Source of the DNA: a virus
Strand: one strand, 5' to 3'
Virus record (IMG/VR): IMGVR_UViG_3300025717_000004
Span: 1-30,010 of that record
DNA length: 30,010 nt
Shown: in pieces, positions 5,380 through 19,330 of the stretch
Layout of the letters: every line of letters begins with the position of its first letter
Position numbering within the stretch: the first letter of the stretch is position 1
Notes under the pieces: model-generated
The model's database searches: none
What the model was told of the DNA's origin: nothing
The model's input: only the letters and a program-made list of their open reading frames with translations
Position numbers and translations under genes: made by a program

Positions 5380-6258
5380 TCAATAGAAGTTTAATGTTCG
5401 ACCAAGTTTCTTTTTTATGTCGTTGTAGAATTGTGAGTCTACCAAGACTAGTTTTATGTCCGGGTAGTATTTCTCCATTCGGCGCAGCTTGGTCTTACTG
5501 CCACCATCCATGTAGCCCTTCACCTCGTGGTACTCGATCGTGCCGTCATTGTTGTGTATCTTAAAATCGGGCAAGTAGGATCGATTGCCAAACTGTATTT
5601 GCTCAAACACAAACCGATCAACCTCATACTCCCACAGCTTGATCTCACCAACCTTCACCAAGTAGTCAAGAAAAAGTGCATAGTTGGCCTCCCATTTTGA
5701 CCGGAAAAACATTGTGCCTTTCGAGTTTTCATAGTGTCCGCTCTGAATATTGGGGTATCTATTGCCGTACATCATGTTCTTGGGCATCTTACCAACCAGC
5801 GCATCTGATATTTTTGCTTTGTGAGCGTCTACCAAGGAGGCGCGTGGAGCGTGTATTTTCTTTTGTATCTCGGGACGCAGCATCGCAGCAGACGTTGTTG
5901 CGCGAATGCGCTCAACAAACTCCGGAGTGCCTTGCTTTGTTCTGCCACGTTTGCGCCTGTGGCGCTCTTGGTTGCTCATTCCGTCCTTTATTTTGGCGGC
6001 CTCGTGCTGGCATTGTGGGGAACAGTATTTTGACTGAGAGCGCTGCATGCTGTTGTATTTTCTATTCAGTTCGTACTCACAGCTGCAAAAAGCACACGTC
6101 TTTTTTTGTGGCGGTTTTGCAAGAGCCTTTTTGTGCTTTGCCTCTGCACTGCACCTCGGGGAGCAATAGCTTGAGCGCATGCGCTGTTGCGCACTGTACT
6201 TTTCGTTCAGTGGGTATTCTGTGCCGCAGTTCTTGCACTTTTTAGTGCGTGTCGTCAT
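5380..6258 (-). CDS. PD-(D/E)XK endonuclease with two zinc fingers, probably homing-type
   Basis: The 292-aa product has two N-terminal zinc fingers (C8/C11 with C32/C36, and C55/C58 with C79/C83; each CxxC...YCSPxC), a basic linker, then a nuclease domain: FRSKWEANYALFLDYL with Glu190, LWEYE, YLPDF with Asp231, and YHEVKGY with Glu245 and Lys247. This is the E...PD...ExK set of PD-(D/E)XK nucleases and resembles phage endonucleases of the EDxHD/Vsr-like kind. It is the only confident minus-strand gene, typical of a free-standing homing or selfish endonuclease. A GTG at 6264 is in frame but touches the -10 box; the ATG at 6258 lies where transcription should begin and is preferred. It has its own promoter and terminator. 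Confidence 0.85.
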   Translation of the reverse strand: MTTRTKKCKNCGTEYPLNEKYSAQQRMRSSYCSPRCSAEAKHKKALAKPPQKKTCAFCSCEYELNRKYNSMQRSQSKYCSPQCQHEAAKIKDGMSNQERHRRKRGRTKQGTPEFVERIRATTSAAMLRPEIQKKIHAPRASLVDAHKAKISDALVGKMPKNMMYGNRYPNIQSGHYENSKGTMFFRSKWEANYALFLDYLVKVGEIKLWEYEVDRFVFEQIQFGNRSYLPDFKIHNNDGTIEYHEVKGYMDGGSKTKLRRMEKYYPDIKLVLVDSQFYNDIKKKLGRTLNFY

Positions 6259-6264
6259 ATCCAC

Positions 6265-6765: not shown

Positions 6766-7464
6766 ATGTCAGAAGAAAAAAGCATCGAAGTTGCGGAGCA
6801 AAAGACATCGCCCGCGCCAGTCAACCAAGTGTTCGCAAAATTCCCTACCAAAGAAGAATGGGAAACGATGAACATCGTCGCACAAACATTGAAACAAGGA
6901 GGCGTCATGCCAAACAGCATTGACACGCTCCCGAAGATGGTCGTCGCATTGCAGGCAGGAAAGGAAATCGGCCTCAGCCCGATCGAGAGCATGAACAGTC
7001 TCTACTTTGTGAACGGCAAGATCGCAATGTATGGCGAGGCAGTGCCAAACCAGCTAGTTCGAGCCGGGCATCGCATCAAGTGGGGAAAGTGTGACGAAAA
7101 GCAGGCCGAAGTGACCGTAATCCGTGGAGATACCGGCGATAGCATGACCACCAAACTCACAATGGAGCAGGCAGAGAAGCGTGGGTACACCAAAAACAAT
7201 GTGTGGCAGCGCTTCCCGGAAAACATGCTCAAGTGGCGCGCGCTATCCATGACCGCGAAATTCATCGCACCGGACGCCATGAAGGGTATCGGCATCAAAG
7301 AAGACCTCGAAGGCGAGATTGTTGTGAAAGAAAGCCGCTTCCACAACGAAAAAGAGACAAAGCGCATCGAAACAGAAGTGAAAGACGGAACCTATGGCGA
7401 GCGCCCATCGCTCGATGAAGCATTACAAGATGAGCCAAAGAAGAAGGCACCAAAGAATAAATAG
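6766..7464 (+). CDS. RecT-like single-strand annealing protein (putative)
   Basis: The 232-aa product shows the pattern of a widespread phage family often annotated as RecT-like: a helical region MPNSIDTLPKMVVALQAG, KEIGLSPIESMNSLYFVNGKIAMYGE (residues ~65-95), a strand-rich part with TVIRGDTGDSMTTKLT, then WQRFPENMLKWRALSMTAKFIAPDAMKGI (about 145-173) and a charged, disordered Lys/Glu-rich tail. RecT-type proteins anneal complementary single strands during phage recombination and work with an exonuclease. The nuclease-translocase fusion four genes on could be that partner (inference). The family call is from memory; a profile search would settle RecT against an unrelated conserved family. 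Confidence 0.6.
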   Translation: MSEEKSIEVAEQKTSPAPVNQVFAKFPTKEEWETMNIVAQTLKQGGVMPNSIDTLPKMVVALQAGKEIGLSPIESMNSLYFVNGKIAMYGEAVPNQLVRAGHRIKWGKCDEKQAEVTVIRGDTGDSMTTKLTMEQAEKRGYTKNNVWQRFPENMLKWRALSMTAKFIAPDAMKGIGIKEDLEGEIVVKESRFHNEKETKRIETEVKDGTYGERPSLDEALQDEPKKKAPKNK

Positions 7465-7465
7465 C

Positions 7466-7681
7466 ATGGACACAGAGAAAAAGGACTACGTGATCATAAC
7501 ACCACTTGGTCACATGATCGTGCGAGCACAAACCCCCTATGATGCATTCATGGAGTACGTGTCAAAGGATGTTGAACTCGGATCACTTTGCCTTGGCCGC
7601 GAAGACTTGGAGGCACGAGGGTATACGCACCTTAAAATGACTGGTGTGCAGAGTGTGTTCGAGCTCATTACAAAAGACTAG
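7466..7681 (+). CDS. Unknown 71-aa protein
   Basis: The ATG comes one base after the previous TAG. The product reads DYVIITPLGHMIVRAQTPYDAFMEYV, then LGREDLEARGYTHLKMTG and VFELITKD, a compact alpha/beta pattern without Cys clusters, TM segments or known motifs. It is probably co-translated with the RecT-like gene. Function not recognised. Confidence 0.65.
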   Translation: MDTEKKDYVIITPLGHMIVRAQTPYDAFMEYVSKDVELGSLCLGREDLEARGYTHLKMTGVQSVFELITKD

Positions 7682-7701: not shown

Positions 7702-8076
7702 ATGACCGAAAGCTGCACAATGCCGATCATCATCACAGCAATAATGCTTGTCGTAGCATTCATTGCCGGGACGCTTTTCGCATTCAACTACGAAGAACCG
7801 ATTGCCCAGTACCGCGCGGAAGACCTCAACAAAGACAGTGTCGTGGACATTCACGACTTTTCGATCGCTGTATCGAACCTCAGCGCCATCATGGACGAGC
7901 TAGGAGGTGAAGCGGCGCCGTGCATCACAGAGTGCCCGGGAAGCACGCTCGAGATCATCAAAGAGCGTGAGAAAGCATCGTACGCGCCAGCGTACGAGCC
8001 GGAAGTCAGCAGCGTACCCTTGCCATACGAAGGCACCGTCATCACCGGCGTCACCGTGACTGGGATAGTGGAGTAG
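7702..8076 (+). CDS. Membrane-anchored protein with dockerin-like EF-hand
   Basis: The 124-aa protein has one N-terminal TM or uncleaved signal (residues ~8-28, PIIITAIMLVVAFIAGTLFAF), then DLNKDSVVDIHDFSIAVSNL (about 42-61), which matches the calcium loop and following helix of dockerin type I repeats (D-x-N-x-D-x-x-V-D-x-x-D-F). Only one repeat is visible; cellulosomal dockerins have two. The remainder is Pro/Glu-rich, and CITECPG has two Cys. A surface-exposed, calcium-binding, protein-binding role is an inference; an envelope function such as superinfection exclusion is possible. The gene lies between the RecT-like and the nuclease-FtsK genes. Confidence 0.65.
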   Translation: MTESCTMPIIITAIMLVVAFIAGTLFAFNYEEPIAQYRAEDLNKDSVVDIHDFSIAVSNLSAIMDELGGEAAPCITECPGSTLEIIKEREKASYAPAYEPEVSSVPLPYEGTVITGVTVTGIVE

Positions 8077-8134: not shown

Positions 8135-10201
8135 ATGGAGCAAACATCGCCACCACTGATCGACCACTGGAGTTATAGCTCAATGGCGCTATTCCTTCGG
8201 AACCGATTGCTGTTCAAGAAGAAGTACATAGAGAGAATATACGACGACCTAAACCGACCGAGTGCCTTAGTCGGACAAGCGTGCCACAAAGCTGTTGAAG
8301 TGCTGTTGAAAGATGGCATCGAGCTATCAGATGCAGCTATTCAAGAAGGGCTCAAGCTCATCAACACCGCGTCAGATGCAACGATCGACTATGGCAAGAC
8401 CGGCAGTAGAGAACAGATGATCAAAGACTTCCACCGAGGTGTCAACTACTACCTCGAGGTGGCAGATATGTGGTACGACCGAGAGGTACTAGCTGTGGAG
8501 AAAGGCATGACACATGAGATCCACGACGAGCAGGGCAACGTGTTCCCGCTCCCGGCAAAATGCTTTTCGGACGTAATATGGAGAAGTACGAAGCCCGAGA
8601 CGTTCAATGGCAAGAAGTACCCGAAGGGCTCGCTATTCATTGAAGACCACAAGTTTGTGCGCTCATACTCTGATCCGGACGTGCTTGATCCCGCACGACT
8701 CTTGCAGAGCATGTTCAACTTCCACATCGTGCGTGAGGAGTTCAAGGAGGCGCCGGTAGCGCTCTTGTACAATGAAGTGAAGCTCACCGAAAACCGAGAC
8801 AAAACACCGCAGGCGCAATACTACACGGTAGACTACAAAGACCAGAAGGAGGCATTCTCACTGTTCTACAAGATATACAACGACTGTACGCGCGAGCTCA
8901 TGCGCCCGGGCGTGACGTTCCTGCCAAACTTTTTTGACACATTCGATGGAGACAACGCATACCTCACCTACCGCAGCAACTTGATCGGAGTGGATGCCCC
9001 GGTGCAGGTCGCGCCAAAGACCAAGCAGGTTGCGTTTCAGGAGAAGACATACGTCGAAAGCGCAACAGACAAGATCGAGAACAAGAACCTCACGAACGAG
9101 GAACGCATCAGACTCAAGCTGCAAGAATTCGGCATTGCGGTCGAGATGAAGGAAACGCACACCAATGGCAGCGTCGTCATGTACACCATGAAACCGAGCC
9201 GCGGCATTCGCATGAGCTCATTCGAGCACCACACGAACGACCTCGCGATCGCGCTCAAGGCAAACAGCATCAGGATCGAGGCACCTATTCCGGGCACAGA
9301 CATGGTCGGGGTAGAGATCCCGGCAGAGAAGCGCACATACAGGAAGTACACACCAACAGAGCACGCGGAGCCGCTCACGATACCGCTTGGAGTCGATGTG
9401 TACGGCAAGCCGGTCGTGAAAAGCCTTGCGGACATGCCACACCTGCTTGTTGCAGGAAGCACCGGATCGGGAAAGAGTGTATTCCTCAACACACTGATCA
9501 CGTCACTCACACAGCAGCATAGCGAAAAAGAGCTCAAACTTGTACTGATTGATCCGAAGCGCGTCGAGCTTGCATCATTCAAGGGATTGCCGCACCTGCT
9601 CACAGCGCCGATCTACGACCACGACAAGGCACACAAGGCGCTCGACTGGCTTGTGAAGGAAATGGAAAGCAGGTATCAGATGCTCGAGGGTGCATACCGC
9701 AACATTGACGAGTACAACACGAACGAAGCGACGACTCTACCCTATATAGTGCTTGTCATCGACGAGTTTGCCGACTTCATGCTTGGCGGGAAGCAGGCAG
9801 ACCGCACTAGAAAGTCTCGAGACAGCCTCAAGAACATTGCAGCACGCGAGCTCACAAAGCAGAAGGCGCGCCAAGCAGGAAAGATCGGAGACGAGTATGA
9901 GGTAGATGAGGGCGTGGAGTACAGCATGGACGCGGAAACGATGCTTGTGAGGCTGGCACAAATGGCGCGCGCCGTAGGCATTCACCTTGTGATCGCAACA
10001 CAGCGCCCGACCGTGAAGGTTGTGACCGGGCTCATCAAGGCAAACCTACCGACGCGCGTGTGCTTTATGGTGACAAGCAAGGTGGAGAGTCAGGTCGTGC
10101 TCGACACCGCAGGAGCAGAGGAGCTCGTAGGCAAGGGAGACATGCTCTACCAAGATCCTACCGCTCGTGGGCTCAAACGATTACAAGCATATTCTCTTTA
10201 G
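8135..10201 (+). CDS. RecB/Cas4-like nuclease fused to FtsK-type DNA translocase
   Basis: 688 aa in two parts. Residues 1-285 look like a PD-(D/E)XK nuclease of the RecB/Cas4 kind: WSYSSMALFLRNR, GQACHKAVE with His51, FSDVIW with Asp146, and FIEDHKF with Asp171 and Lys173. Residues ~320-400 match the FtsK alpha domain (LKLQEFGIAVEM..., NDLAIALKANSIRIEAPIPG, VGVEIP). Residues 405-688 are the FtsK/SpoIIIE motor: GSTGSGKS (441-448), LVLIDPKRVELASFKGLPHLL, VLVIDEFAD (539-547), ATQRP (621-625), TGLIKANLPTR and AEELVGKGDMLY. A charged ~50-residue insertion follows Walker B (about 548-600), and the gamma DNA-reading domain is absent. A translocating nuclease for DNA ends or concatemers, a one-chain analogue of HerA-NurA, is an inference. 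Preceded by its own promoter. Confidence 0.88.
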   Translation: MEQTSPPLIDHWSYSSMALFLRNRLLFKKKYIERIYDDLNRPSALVGQACHKAVEVLLKDGIELSDAAIQEGLKLINTASDATIDYGKTGSREQMIKDFHRGVNYYLEVADMWYDREVLAVEKGMTHEIHDEQGNVFPLPAKCFSDVIWRSTKPETFNGKKYPKGSLFIEDHKFVRSYSDPDVLDPARLLQSMFNFHIVREEFKEAPVALLYNEVKLTENRDKTPQAQYYTVDYKDQKEAFSLFYKIYNDCTRELMRPGVTFLPNFFDTFDGDNAYLTYRSNLIGVDAPVQVAPKTKQVAFQEKTYVESATDKIENKNLTNEERIRLKLQEFGIAVEMKETHTNGSVVMYTMKPSRGIRMSSFEHHTNDLAIALKANSIRIEAPIPGTDMVGVEIPAEKRTYRKYTPTEHAEPLTIPLGVDVYGKPVVKSLADMPHLLVAGSTGSGKSVFLNTLITSLTQQHSEKELKLVLIDPKRVELASFKGLPHLLTAPIYDHDKAHKALDWLVKEMESRYQMLEGAYRNIDEYNTNEATTLPYIVLVIDEFADFMLGGKQADRTRKSRDSLKNIAARELTKQKARQAGKIGDEYEVDEGVEYSMDAETMLVRLAQMARAVGIHLVIATQRPTVKVVTGLIKANLPTRVCFMVTSKVESQVVLDTAGAEELVGKGDMLYQDPTARGLKRLQAYSL

Positions 10202-10436: not shown

Positions 10437-10906
10437 AAAAGAAGCGTCAACGCACGCCGGCAGAACGTCTCGCACAGCTCGAGATGATCAACTGGATCTT
10501 GGCGCAGCCTCAAGTGCTCCCGGCAGTCTACGCAGCAAAGAAGCAGCTCGACGCTTGGCAATGGAACGACGAGAAGGAGAAGAACGAATACAACGACCCT
10601 GCCTTCCTCACGTTTTGGGGAAGCTACCCGAAGAAGGTCGGGAAAGGTGCTGCATTCAGGGCATGGAAGCGCATCAAGCCCGGAGAGAAGAAGGCGCAGC
10701 AGATCATTGACAGCGTGAGCAAGCACAAAAACACTCCCGCGTGGAAGAAGGAGGAGGGGCGTTTCATACCAAACCCCGCAACATTCCTCAACCAACAGCG
10801 GTACGACGACGAAATTGAAGAAAAAAATGAACGTGTAAGAGATCTTTACAAGCTCGAATACGATCAGGAACGGCACACAATGGTACAAGTCCCGATCAAA
10901 CAATGA
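10433..10906 (+). CDS. Replisome-organiser-like protein (phage O/DnaT-like C-terminal type)
   Basis: The ATG at 10433 overlaps the previous stop (ATGA), which decides the start over the in-frame non-ATG codon at 10415. The 157-aa product carries the element FLTFWGSYPKKVGKGAAFRAWKRI (about residues 58-81), then QQIIDSVSKHK, GRFIPNPATFLNQQRYDDE (about 106-124). This FW-x-x-YP-x-K...W...F-x-P-x-P-x-T-x-L-x-x-x-x-W/Y block is common at the C-terminus of phage replication initiation proteins, which load or recruit helicase. The usual N-terminal winged helix is replaced by a short helical segment (MINWILAQPQVLPAVYAAKK). With no polymerase or primase in view, the phage probably recruits the host replisome. 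Confidence 0.65.
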   Translation: MKKKRQRTPAERLAQLEMINWILAQPQVLPAVYAAKKQLDAWQWNDEKEKNEYNDPAFLTFWGSYPKKVGKGAAFRAWKRIKPGEKKAQQIIDSVSKHKNTPAWKKEEGRFIPNPATFLNQQRYDDEIEEKNERVRDLYKLEYDQERHTMVQVPIKQ

Positions 10907-11526
10907 GTATGAGACAAAAACTACCGAAACTATGGCCTTTTTTGGTCAAACTACATCAAGAACACCCGGACACATTCAGCAACCCGGAGCTCCTCAAGGC
11001 AACCGCGGCGCAAAAGTGGCCGCAACTCAAGCAGGACGAGAAGTGCCCAAACTGTGATGCACACATGAAAGAGACGATCAGAACGTTTGGGTACTACAAC
11101 GCGCTCCTCATGCTCGAAATGGCAAACGTGGTGCGCAGGCGCGTGCGAGATGGTGTGCCCTTCACAAAGGCAAACCGCGTGCATGTGGTACAGGAGCCCA
11201 ACCTATCCGACACAGCAAAACACCAAACGACCGTGTGCCGCTACCTTGGCCTCATTGCAAAGGTGAAAAACGAAGAAGGCAAGCACGACACCGGCATGTG
11301 GCTCATTACCAAGCGCGGGTGGGCAGCGCTCCGGGGGGAACCGATCCCAAGCACGGTATCGACCTTCCGGAACGAGATCACCAAGCACCACGAAGCAACT
11401 ACCACCATTGGAGAAGCGCTCCGGGCACGCAAAGACAGCTTCGTTTTTCACCTTTGCGTCGCAGTGGAGCGGTACAATGAGAAGGAGTGGTACGAGTTCG
11501 GGGACAATGTCGAAGGAGCGCTCTAA
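10903..11526 (+). CDS. Conserved phage protein with zinc knuckle and winged-helix-like part
   Basis: Its ATG overlaps the previous TGA. The 207-aa product has a Cys pair (CPNCDAHM, residues ~46-53) followed by helices (FGYYNALLMLEMANVV), then HQTTVCRYLGLIAKVKNEEGKHDTGMWLITKRGWAALRGEPIPSTVSTF (about 106-155). The last block has the strand-helix-wing order of a winged helix, and similar GLI...G-x-W-x-x-T-x-x-G-W/F text recurs in uncharacterised phage proteins. DNA binding in replication or transcription control is an inference. It ends the 8135-11526 unit. Confidence 0.7.
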   Translation: MSMRQKLPKLWPFLVKLHQEHPDTFSNPELLKATAAQKWPQLKQDEKCPNCDAHMKETIRTFGYYNALLMLEMANVVRRRVRDGVPFTKANRVHVVQEPNLSDTAKHQTTVCRYLGLIAKVKNEEGKHDTGMWLITKRGWAALRGEPIPSTVSTFRNEITKHHEATTTIGEALRARKDSFVFHLCVAVERYNEKEWYEFGDNVEGAL

Positions 11527-14357: not shown

Positions 14358-15839
14358 ATGAAGCAAAGCAAGCTCACACCACTACAGCTACAGCACTACC
14401 GGCTCAAGAACGAGAAGTTCCGGTACTACGAGCCTAGTGGTGTAGGCGAGGAGTTCATCAACGCATTCAAGAGCGACGACTATCTGATCGTGTTCATCAG
14501 TGCTGCAAACGGTGTCGGAAAGACCGCGCTCGCCTGCAACATCATCGCAAACCTCGCATTCCCGGGGCACAATCCATGGTTTCAGGGCGGCGTGTTCGAG
14601 AAGTGGCCGTATCGCACGAACGGCCGTCTCGTCACCGATGGATCGCTCGTGGAGAAGAACATGGTCAACGAGCTCAAGTTTTGGCTGCCACAAGACCGGT
14701 ACACCACAAGCAAAGCAAACAAACACTTCGAGTCTCAATGGAACACCGATACCGGGTGGTCGTGGGACATCATGACGTACGATCAAGACGCGGAGCAATT
14801 CGAGGGTGTGACGCTTGGGTGGGCGTGGTTTGACGAACCGCCACCGGACGCGATCCTCAAGGCTACTATCGCTCGTATGCGACGTGGTGGTGTCATTATG
14901 ATCACAGCAACCCCGATCGGGGGAAGTGCTCACCTCTATGACCTCTTTGCATCAGGAAAAGTGGAAACAACGGTACAGCTCCGTGAAAACGACGAGCCGA
15001 TCACGGTGCAGCGTCGCATCTTTCACATTACTGCCGACGTGGAGAGCGTGTGCAAGCAGCACGGCGTTCGTGGACACCTCGAGCACGACCACATACTCCA
15101 GATGGTCGCTGAATACCCCGCAGACGAGCGACAAGCGCGTGTTTACGGTAAATTCCAACACCTCATAGGCCTTGTGTATAAGCAATGGGACAGAGACATA
15201 CACGTCATTGAACCGTTCGCGCTCGATCCGGACGACTTTGTGGTATATCACTCACTCGATCCGCACCCGAGAAACCCGGACGCCGGGCTATGGGTAGCAG
15301 TAGACCGCAAAGGGCGCAAGTACATTGTCGATGAATACTACGAGAAGCCTCGAGACGTGCGACACCTTGCCCGGGACATAAAGGCCAAGAATGGGCAATA
15401 TCGCATGGAGGAGCCGTTTGTGTGCGATCCCAGCGCGTTCATCGTCGATCAACACACGAACCGGAGCCTCGCAGCAATGCTTGGTGATGAAGGTCTATCC
15501 TACATCGAAGCAAGCAAAGCCCGCGCAGCAGCAGACGCCCGGATCGGCACTGCGCTCAACTACACCATGACCAACGGCGAGTTGATACGAGCGCCGGAGA
15601 TATACGTGTTCTCAAACTGCAAACGCTTCATATACGAGATGGAGCACTACCGGTGGCAGGAATGGAAAGGAAAGGCCGCTGAGGAGCGAAATCGGAAGGA
15701 GAAGCCGGTAGACAAGGACGACCACACGATCGAATGCTTGGGGCGCATCCTCATGCGTGAGCCGGGCTATGTGTACCAGCATCAGAGCAATGTATACGAG
15801 GGTGAAGACGTAGCAAGCGATGATCCGTATGACCGATAG
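14358..15839 (+). CDS. terL: Terminase large subunit
   Basis: The 493-aa packaging motor has Walker A AANGVGKT (49-56), Walker B LGWAWFDE (153-160), motif III MITATP (181-186), and a C-terminal RNase H-like nuclease with Asp301 in HSLDPHP, VDRKGRKYIVDEYYEK, Asp357 in VCDPSA and a late acidic motif VDKDDHTIECLGR (about 444-456). Together these power DNA translocation and cut concatemers. Length is normal for the family. The start is one base after the deformylase stop. A ~780-base gap with small RNA units follows. Confidence 0.95.
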   Translation: MKQSKLTPLQLQHYRLKNEKFRYYEPSGVGEEFINAFKSDDYLIVFISAANGVGKTALACNIIANLAFPGHNPWFQGGVFEKWPYRTNGRLVTDGSLVEKNMVNELKFWLPQDRYTTSKANKHFESQWNTDTGWSWDIMTYDQDAEQFEGVTLGWAWFDEPPPDAILKATIARMRRGGVIMITATPIGGSAHLYDLFASGKVETTVQLRENDEPITVQRRIFHITADVESVCKQHGVRGHLEHDHILQMVAEYPADERQARVYGKFQHLIGLVYKQWDRDIHVIEPFALDPDDFVVYHSLDPHPRNPDAGLWVAVDRKGRKYIVDEYYEKPRDVRHLARDIKAKNGQYRMEEPFVCDPSAFIVDQHTNRSLAAMLGDEGLSYIEASKARAAADARIGTALNYTMTNGELIRAPEIYVFSNCKRFIYEMEHYRWQEWKGKAAEERNRKEKPVDKDDHTIECLGRILMREPGYVYQHQSNVYEGEDVASDDPYDR

Positions 15840-16621: not shown

Positions 16622-17011
16622 ATGCAAAAATCTTTTCTAGAAATGAGTGCAGAAGAACGTATAGAGTATCGGCTGTTGCGTGGTGCTTGTGCAATTTGTA
16701 GAACTAGTAAAAAGTTGTGTGTTGATCATGACCACAAAACGGGGCGTGTTCGTGATGTGTTGTGCAATCGCTGCAACAGTTGGCTTGGCGTTATAGAAAA
16801 TGCAAAGAAAACACCTCACGCAATGAGCACAATACGTCGTTTGTCGTCTCGGCTTGCTCGTCGAGGTCTTGCCGTTTCGCTATTTTATGAGTACCTGCAA
16901 AATCATCGGTCAACATTTTGTAGGCTCGACGCACCAACACTTTCTAAGGCAACAAAGATGCGGGAAAAACACCTCAAAAGAATTTTGTTGAAAAACGGCT
17001 ATCTCGGCTAG
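16622..17011 (+). CDS. Endonuclease VII-like HNH nuclease
   Basis: The 129-aa protein has the treble-clef HNH core of recombination endonuclease VII: GACAIC (Cys23, Cys26), LCVDHDHKTGRVRDVLCNRCNSWLG with His36-Asp37-His38 and Cys48/Cys51. T4 endonuclease VII resolves DNA junctions before packaging; many short relatives are homing-like. A C-terminal helical part (LSKATKMREKHLKRILLKNG) looks DNA-binding. The gene is richer in A/T than its neighbours, with runs such as TTTTG, which suggests recent acquisition. It lies between the RNA units and the structural operon. Confidence 0.85.
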   Translation: MQKSFLEMSAEERIEYRLLRGACAICRTSKKLCVDHDHKTGRVRDVLCNRCNSWLGVIENAKKTPHAMSTIRRLSSRLARRGLAVSLFYEYLQNHRSTFCRLDAPTLSKATKMREKHLKRILLKNGYLG

Positions 17012-17401: not shown

Positions 17402-19330
17402 ATGGCTACAGATACAAACAAGAACCTTCCGGCCGTTACAGAGGCGCAGAAGCCCGAGGAGGCACAAGAAGCTGATCGGAACGAGTACACCGACCTCGTA
17501 AAGCAGGTGCAAAGCGAGTGGAACCAAGGATGGTGGCACCTCAAGCCAAAGTGGGATGAGTGGGCGCTCCGACTCAAACTGTTCAACAATCAGAAGCGAG
17601 ACAAGGAAAGCGTGGGCGATACGACGCTGTTTTCTATATTCCAGACCGTACTTGCCGAGCTTTATGAGGATCGCTTGCAGGTGACGTTCGCACCCCGGGA
17701 GATGGGCGACGAGGAAGCTGCCGAAAACCTCACGATCGTAGCCGAGTACGACTACGACATCATGGAGAAGGACATGGTTGATTATGAGTGGATATTTGAG
17801 TCATGTTTCTATGGGCGCGGGCTTATATGCACGATGGAATGGGACAAAGACACAAAGACTCCTGCGCCGGTTGTGTGGAGTGCTATGTCTGTTGTGCGCG
17901 ATCCGGAGGCCGGAAGCGTGAATGGTGACCGTTTAGGGCGTGGAAAAAGCCGCTACCTGTACCGCGAGACACGGTTGTGCAAAGCAGACCTCGAAAATGG
18001 CAACTATTTTGACTATGAAACGCTCAAGCCGAGCGAGCAGTACAACAACACCCGGAGCCCGCTCGACGAATACATGCGCCTACAGGCCGAGGCAGCAGGC
18101 CTCAGTGATCTACAGAAGCACAGCAACGTGGACGGCGAGAATGCCACGTACAAGGTGGTGGAAGGTTTCACCCGGTGGAATGGCAAATTGTACTTTGTAA
18201 CGCTTGCAGACGACATGCAGCGCGTGATCCGTGCAGATGAGCTCGAGGGAGATCGTATGCCCATCGTGGATCGCGTGTTGTTCCCGATCCCTAACTCATG
18301 GGACAGCGTCAGCATCCCCGATCTTGTCGAGGACAAGCAACGAGCTCGAGCTGTTGCATTGAACCTGTCACTCAAGGGCGTCAAGGCGAACCTGCTACCG
18401 ATGTACCTGTACGACAAGAACAAGATCGACGAGCGAACCGACTTTTCGTTCCAGTTCAACAAGTTCATCGGCGTGAAGGGCGATCCGCGCAATGCAGCCG
18501 TACCACTTACCAAAGACCACCTCAAGTCAGACGTGTCATACATCATGGACACGCTCGACCTCAGCGCACAGAAGGCCTCAGCAACACCGGACATAAAGCA
18601 GGGCGCACGACCGACCGGAGCAGGTACCGCTACCCGGGACAACCTTGTGGAGCAGGGATCAGATACACGTTACAGCTTGGCCGCTCGTGTGTTCGGATGG
18701 AGCGAAAAGCGCTTTTGGCAGGAATACTACCGCCACCTGCGCGAAAACTTCGAGGACGGCATCGAGGAGAAGACCGCACGCATCGTGGGATCACTTGGCG
18801 CTACATGGCGACCGTTTGCAAAGAAAGACCTCGTCACCACACACAAAGATCCCGACATCAAGATCGAGAGCCGTCGTGTTGCGGAAGGAAAGCGTCAGAA
18901 CGAGGCAATCATGTATCGCGACTACATCCAAATGGCCGCAAACGATCCCACTGCACAGGTACGCGCAGCTCTACGGCACTACGGCAAGCTCATTGGCCTC
19001 AAGACGGACGTTATCGAGCAAGTATTCCCGGACACGATCGACGAATTGCGCGCAGAGGAGGAAAACCAGCTCATCATGGATGGGAAAAAGGCGATTGTGC
19101 TCCCGAACGACGACCACTACCTACACATGCACGTACACAACAAGCTTCCGGACAGCCCGACCAAGAAGGCGCACATCGAGGCACACAAGAAAGCACTGAT
19201 CTTGCAGAAGTTCCGACCGGATCTTGTGCCGCAAGCACCGGCGCAGGCAATGCCGGAAGGCGAGCTCGGGGAGCAACTTCGACCAGAGGGGCGGCAAGCA
19301 ACACGCCAGCTCCCTACCATGAACGCATAA
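17402..19330 (+). CDS. Portal protein
   Basis: A 642-aa protein between the terminase and scaffold/capsid genes. After a Glu-rich N-terminus it has WWHLKPKWDEWALRLKLFNNQKRD, TTLFSIFQTVLAELYEDRLQVTF, YGRGLICTMEWDKD and PVVWSAMSVVRDPEAG (residues ~40-180), typical of podovirus-type portals, a wing region with VDRVLFPIPNSWDSVSIPDLVEDKQRARAVALNL, then GTATRDNLVEQGSD and helical stem/crown parts. The C-terminus is Pro/Gln-rich. Twelve copies would form the DNA entry channel that docks the terminase. Assignment rests on size, position and overall pattern; there is no single diagnostic motif. Confidence 0.8.
   Translation: MATDTNKNLPAVTEAQKPEEAQEADRNEYTDLVKQVQSEWNQGWWHLKPKWDEWALRLKLFNNQKRDKESVGDTTLFSIFQTVLAELYEDRLQVTFAPREMGDEEAAENLTIVAEYDYDIMEKDMVDYEWIFESCFYGRGLICTMEWDKDTKTPAPVVWSAMSVVRDPEAGSVNGDRLGRGKSRYLYRETRLCKADLENGNYFDYETLKPSEQYNNTRSPLDEYMRLQAEAAGLSDLQKHSNVDGENATYKVVEGFTRWNGKLYFVTLADDMQRVIRADELEGDRMPIVDRVLFPIPNSWDSVSIPDLVEDKQRARAVALNLSLKGVKANLLPMYLYDKNKIDERTDFSFQFNKFIGVKGDPRNAAVPLTKDHLKSDVSYIMDTLDLSAQKASATPDIKQGARPTGAGTATRDNLVEQGSDTRYSLAARVFGWSEKRFWQEYYRHLRENFEDGIEEKTARIVGSLGATWRPFAKKDLVTTHKDPDIKIESRRVAEGKRQNEAIMYRDYIQMAANDPTAQVRAALRHYGKLIGLKTDVIEQVFPDTIDELRAEEENQLIMDGKKAIVLPNDDHYLHMHVHNKLPDSPTKKAHIEAHKKALILQKFRPDLVPQAPAQAMPEGELGEQLRPEGRQATRQLPTMNA

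Follow-up and report, generated by a model that had tools for sequence, protein, structure and literature searches.

Introduction

RecE and RecT work together as an exonuclease-annealase pair, and phage annealases are usually paired with an exonuclease lacking a motor. Lambda Exo and Red beta form another such pair (PMC7496540). Motor-driven resection is performed by HerA-NurA, which makes 3' ssDNA for recombination in archaea and some bacteria. In this complex, the putative exit of the DNA is the N-terminal HAS face of the pump, and it is there that the nuclease is docked (PMC9960219). The related motor FtsK translocates DNA from its beta ring to its alpha ring (PMC9410874). One-chain proteins consisting of a nuclease and a HerA/FtsK motor have been described for DndH and related defense systems (PMC10853773), and fusions of a nuclease with a helicase, for example UvrD-Cas4, are also known (PMC5704561).

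Here, we analyzed the window, which is the entire stretch of 30,010 nucleotides of viral DNA from IMG/VR record IMGVR_UViG_3300025717_000004, and focused on a gene that joins a predicted nuclease to an FtsK translocase. This fusion is probably a one-chain, ATP-driven DNA-end resection enzyme, which would stand in for RecE or lambda Exo within the RecT recombination module of a phage. Computation gave us both domains, conserved active sites, one origin with co-inheritance of the two parts, a constant linkage to RecT, and copies beside chromosomal genes in metagenome-assembled genomes (MAGs).

Architecture and Predicted Structure of the Fusion Protein

The fusion gene occupies positions 8135-10201 of the plus strand as one uninterrupted ATG-start ORF of 688 codons, on which the positions given below are also located. 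A one-chain combination of nuclease and FtsK translocase had been proposed for it in the initial annotation, and this was borne out by the single 688-residue ORF, Pfam, AlphaFold2, fold matches, and the conservation of the family. Residues 1-282 (8135-8980) constitute the PD-(D/E)XK nuclease domain, which is followed by a flexible linker at approximately residues 283-318 (8981-9088). The FtsK alpha domain spans residues 313-396 (9071-9322; PF17854, 5.5e-19), and the FtsK beta motor spans residues 405-688 (9347-10198), for which FtsK_SpoIIIE was matched at residues 410-582 and in a second stretch (PF01580, 8e-48). Both PF17854 and PF01580 were detected by Pfam in all 33 fusion members searched. 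PDDEXK_1 (PF12705) was sub-threshold in the window protein alone (E 0.012), while it matched 29 of the 33 members with a best value of 1.1e-16. The nuclease half of the window protein also matched exonuclease families of PHROG at 2.8e-7 and 2.3e-4.

The absence of the gamma DNA-reading domain was likewise confirmed, as the window chain stops right after the motor; at the fusion loci, the chains end 0-8 residues past the aligned motor, leaving no KOPS/XerD-type gamma domain. N-terminal transmembrane segments are also absent, and a soluble nuclease domain occupies the N terminus. A charged, helical insertion follows Walker B at 9779-9931, where the model confidence is lower. This insertion, which had been pointed out from the window sequence, is real but is not a fixed feature of the family, since its 51 residues in the window protein correspond to 8-82 residues in the relatives.

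The AlphaFold2 model of the full chain gave a pLDDT of 86 and a pTM of 0.53, with a low-confidence segment of the linker at residues 291-305 (pLDDT below 50). The nuclease domain modeled alone gave a pLDDT of 94 and a pTM of 0.90, and its nearest solved folds were AdnA (VIA Z 17.4), the putative exonuclease 3l0a (16.6), and RecE (15.2). Further matches were obtained for ACE1/Cas4 (14.7), AddB (14.5), Dna2 (13.5), and MGME1 (13.0), and lambda exonuclease was a weaker match (8.8). The nuclease fold anticipated for the N-terminal half was hence recovered by structure prediction, and this half is a predicted RecB/AdnA/RecE-type PD-(D/E)XK nuclease. As Cas4, MGME1, and Dna2 are among the matches, the modeled folds do not settle between endonuclease and exonuclease action. 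The motor half (residues 316-688) matched FtsK structures with VIA Z values of 38-40, which agrees with the alpha domain and full motor described initially.

Conservation of the Two Active Sites

The active-site residues were examined in an alignment of 41 family members. His51 (8285-8287), Asp146 (8570-8572; a predicted metal ligand), and Asp171-x-Lys173 had been placed in a PD-(D/E)XK context, and all of them were found at these positions and are invariant in 41/41 members. The D-x-K motif is Asp171-His172-Lys173 (8645-8653), and a RecB/Cas4-type motif III glutamine, Gln191 (8705-8707), is also present in every member. Together with E122 and K216, these residues make up the invariant set of the nuclease, namely H51, E122, D146, D171, K173, Q191, and K216. 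No alignment column contains Cys in half or more of the 41 members, indicating that the nuclease is not of the Fe-S type found in Cas4 and AddB.

In the motor, the Walker A motif GSTGSGKS (residues 441-448; 9455-9478) and the Walker B segment containing D543-E544 (approximately residues 538-547; 9746-9775) were located as annotated. A phosphosensor and DNA-gripping segment, T622-Q623-R624 to K635-A-N637, is encoded at 9998-10045, of which T622, Q623, and R624 have as their counterparts T630, Q631, and R632 in the FtsK of P. aeruginosa (PMC9410874). Invariance among the 41 members was observed for G441, G444, G446, K447, S448, D473, K475, R513, D543, E544, R612, T622, Q623, and K635, and 37 of them have retained the DNA-gripping R624. 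The dN/dS ratio was computable for four pairs in each half and was 0.03-0.13 for the nuclease and 0.04-0.36 for the motor, synonymous sites being saturated in the remaining pairs. On these ratios, both halves are under purifying selection in the computable pairs. The analogy with HerA-NurA drawn in the initial annotation thus gained comparative support from a conserved family with invariant active sites in both halves.

Distribution, Descent, and Hosts

The search for other proteins carrying both domains in this order yielded 43 other viral contigs and three bacterial MAGs, where two of the 43 contigs end inside the FtsK alpha domain. Each of these relatives is known from a metagenomic contig or a MAG. 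Scanning the motor alignment against IMG/VR gave 80 loci, of which 36 possess the fusion, mostly as ORFs of 627-736 residues, and two of these fusions (L030 and L039) are interrupted by contig ends. The N-terminal parts of the fusion loci are homologous to the window nuclease, with phmmer values down to 6e-102. Two further scans with the nuclease only, which were blind to FtsK, added seven contigs consisting of five full-length fusions and the two that end inside FtsK alpha. Every nuclease relative obtained in the viral scans is either a fusion or one cut within FtsK alpha by the contig end. These viral relatives were recovered solely with the motor and nuclease alignments; single-protein scans of the viral contigs, using either the whole protein or the nuclease, gave no relatives. 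When annotated phages were searched by tblastn with the full length and with the nuclease half, only motor matches and no full-length relative were obtained, and the nuclease half had no match at E 1. The loci are partly non-independent, as L018, L019, and L020 are near-identical, and so are L025 and L026.

In a tree that also contained FtsKs of viruses, of Saccharibacteria, and of other origin, 39 fusion motors grouped in one clade (support 96/93), and the distances of the two halves were correlated with a Mantel r of 0.85, a value reached in none of 5000 permutations. This one clade and the correlated distances indicate a single fusion event followed by joint descent of the halves. The most divergent fusions are L134 and L136, which possess a strongly diverged motor and a long branch, and in which the fusion precedes recT. 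Separately, a single 37.2 kb contig was found to have L039 at one end and L106 at the other, both containing part of a fusion gene. This arrangement is suggestive of a near-complete genome that is circularly permuted.

A search of the phylum Patescibacteria detected stand-alone versions of the nuclease in other genomes, namely three strong relatives with E 1e-65 to 1e-76. They are located on the chromosomes at 8178-9065 of L171, 6441-7268 of L172, and 7859-8758 of L173, beside what we take to be, from reading their translations, housekeeping genes such as dnaG, rpoD, and hisS. No RecT or FtsK was found beside these three genes, which means that the nuclease can have another use. They form one clade, and the nuclease tree fits them as either ancestral or derived. 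Such relatives, detected with the nuclease profile within that phylum, would tie the nuclease to Patescibacteria.

Two of the fusion loci were found in a bacterial collection, one in MAG S12M_Sa_37 and the other in a MAG labeled Candidatus Saccharibacteria, and the third MAG fusion occurs in another genome of the same class. A strong match was obtained in 3 of 393 genomes of that class. Reading of the translations leads us to assume that the neighbors are secA and murD in one MAG and ftsI, mraY, ftsW, and murG in the other. Copies located near such chromosomal genes fit a prophage or its remnant. As two copies lie beside chromosomal MAG genes and one MAG is labeled Saccharibacteria, the hosts of the fusion phages are probably the ultra-small Patescibacteria, and the window phage presumably has a host of this kind.

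A recT Gene beside the Fusion

A RecT-family single-strand annealing protein, the likely partner of the fusion, is encoded at 6766-7464 on the plus strand (PF03837, 2.3e-5; PHROG RecT, 2.8e-16). A pairing with this protein of the early region had been suggested from the window, and the relatives agree with it: in 42/42 testable loci, no more than 2.4 kb separates the fusion from a recT of the same strand, which is upstream in 40 and downstream in 2, the latter in the reversed order noted above for L134 and L136. A RecT profile (E 1e-3) matched 32 of the 35 fusion records, and in each of the remaining three a homologue of the window RecT is present. As a control, viral records with a non-fused FtsK were inspected; RecT occurred anywhere in only 5 of 42, and its coordinates were in no case closer than approximately 8 kb to FtsK. 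A nuclease of the lambda-Exo-like YqaJ family (PF09588) was found in none of the 35 fusion records.

The two genes overlap by a few bases in many loci, several of these overlaps being 4 nt. The gap however exceeds 200 bp in 15 of the 42 loci and is 670 bp in the window, so that direct translational coupling of recT and the fusion is not general. The window gap holds two small plus-strand ORFs (7394-7681 and 7702-8076), which are not common to three or more of the compared loci. Three RecT subfamilies alternate along the fusion tree, and the best tree requires four or more changes between them. According to this tree, it is the type of RecT partner that changes while the fusion stays.

Other genes of the window were also recorded. 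In 16 of the compared loci, that of the window among them, a conserved gene is located downstream of the fusion; its window copy occupies 10903-11526 and gave no Pfam match. Positions 2-2614 encode the end of a very large protein (870 residues, open at the window edge) containing the Pfam domain LPD38, 'large polyvalent protein associated domain 38'. On the minus strand, 5380-6264 encodes zinc-ribbon-like repeats together with a DUF1064/Holliday-junction-resolvase-like nuclease, which is possibly a free-standing homing endonuclease. A large-terminase candidate with weak profile matches is located at 14358-15839 and a portal gene at 17402-19330, between which lies a gene of the Endonuclease VII family (16622-17011).

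Proposed Function and Alternative Explanations

By analogy, the simplest reading would be a RecT module in which the fusion acts as the exonuclease, driven by a pump of its own. The FtsK alpha-beta part would bring six copies together on linear dsDNA, and the assembled fusion would not read KOPS because it has no gamma domain. The beta ring would then pump dsDNA toward the alpha ring, such that the DNA exits at the alpha face, where the N-terminal nuclease domains would hang on a linker of approximately 35 residues. The tethering of the nuclease at the N-terminal side of alpha places it on the same face as in HerA-NurA. One strand, probably the 5'-ended one, would be degraded at this face, and the resulting ssDNA would be passed to the RecT encoded nearby for annealing in phage replication, circularization, concatemer formation, or repair. 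The hexamer, active translocation, exonuclease rather than endonuclease action, strand polarity, and physical contact with RecT are the parts of this scheme that we infer.

Another conceivable function for a one-chain pump and nuclease is that of a defense or takeover enzyme of the kind proposed for DndH and other HerA/FtsK-capture systems, which would track along host or competing DNA with its pump and break it down with its nuclease. In DndH, a single chain indeed contains an REase as well as a HerA/FtsK motor, in some cases with FtsK alpha (PMC10853773), and the motor half of the window protein matched the PADLOC SspH models at 7e-52. These matches however cover the motor half only, from residue 335 onward, and among solved structures AdnA and RecE come closest to the fold of the nuclease. 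Since the constant neighbor of the fusion is RecT, which points to recombination, we think a defense function unlikely. The linker raises a different question, namely whether the motor feeds the nuclease at all. The motor might instead clear proteins from the DNA or position RecT, leaving the nuclease to work by itself, either slowly as an exonuclease or as an endonuclease specific for certain structures. Such independence would suit both the segment of pLDDT below 50 at residues 291-305, which leaves the nuclease free, and the full-chain pTM of 0.53, which defines no fixed arrangement of the domains. On the other hand, the members of a divergent family have all kept the one-chain fusion and the invariant residues of its two active sites, which suggests coupling, and the N-terminal position of the nuclease is the side where FtsK pushes DNA out. 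An uncoupled motor is likewise unlikely.

The end-processing or concatemer-processing role suggested in the initial annotation has to be divided, as the results favor the former. A machine that trims or resolves concatemers or genome ends before packaging, like a second terminase, would share with terminases the plan of a pump and a nuclease in one chain. The nucleases of terminases have the RNase H fold, whereas the fusion combines an FtsK motor with a RecB-family PD-(D/E)XK fold. Furthermore, the fusion gene sits with recT and not among the packaging genes. The concatemer role is less likely because the window encodes a portal and, apart from the fusion, a terminase candidate, and we regard a genome-processing machine as very unlikely. 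The chance that the fusion is an assembly or annotation artifact, in which two genes were erroneously joined near 8990-9100, is negligible. The same uninterrupted junction is present in more than 40 other viral contigs and in the three MAGs, by which such an error is excluded; the GC content is also even along the gene, and the two halves were co-inherited. Resection of DNA ends in the RecT module hence stays the preferred reading.

Comparison with Known Systems

In the open-access literature, neither a phage nuclease-FtsK fusion nor a link between RecT and FtsK was found described. The initial impression of an undescribed architecture is accordingly valid for phages in this literature, but not in general, considering the DndH-type one-chain fusions and UvrD-Cas4. 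What appears to be new is the phage RecT module with a predicted FtsK-fused exonuclease; one-chain nuclease and HerA/FtsK proteins are already known in defense. Nuclease and HerA/FtsK motor in one polypeptide, in some cases with FtsK alpha, are shared with DndH and the HerA/FtsK-capture proteins. DndH has an REase domain and belongs to cellular defense operons, whereas the fusion has a domain predicted to be exonuclease-like and occurs in phages together with RecT. Cellular FtsK/SpoIIIE and other phage-encoded FtsKs, such as Mycobacterium phage Optimus gp193, share the alpha and beta parts, all motor motifs, and approximately 40-45% identity with the fusion, which in contrast lacks the transmembrane part and the gamma domain and carries a nuclease at its N terminus.

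A phage nuclease gene located near the gene of a single-strand annealing protein is the feature shared with RecE-RecT and lambda Exo-Red beta. Neither of the two exonucleases in these pairs has an ATP motor, whereas here a predicted exonuclease is joined to a dsDNA pump with RecT kept beside it. If this is true, an FtsK motor has been recruited for recombination, and not for segregation or packaging. The fusion would also provide a compact one-gene system for testing how translocation is coupled to resection, and it opens the recombination biology of Patescibacteria phages, a little-known area.

HerA-NurA resembles the fusion in combining a dsDNA pump of the FtsK/HerA superfamily with a nuclease on the N-terminal DNA-exit face, and its role in recombination may be likened to that of the fusion. 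It is, however, composed of two proteins, a HAS-barrel HerA and NurA, while the fusion is one chain with FtsK alpha, a RecB/AdnA-type nuclease, and RecT as the likely partner. No NurA or HAS-barrel match was listed by Pfam in the fusion proteins, which have FtsK_alpha instead; membership in HerA-NurA was rejected on these grounds and for the single chain. RecBCD, AddAB, and AdnAB also possess a RecB/AdnA-type nuclease and an ATP motor in one chain, and AdnA is the best structural match. Their motors are SF1 helicases acting on ssDNA, whereas that of the fusion belongs to the hexameric FtsK type and is predicted to translocate dsDNA. We see about an even chance that an FtsK hexamer pushing dsDNA onto tethered RecB-type nucleases, with the ssDNA handed to RecT, is a third architecture of motor-driven end resection besides these SF1 helicase-nucleases and HerA-NurA, which evolved once in Patescibacteria phages and works with at least three RecT subfamilies.
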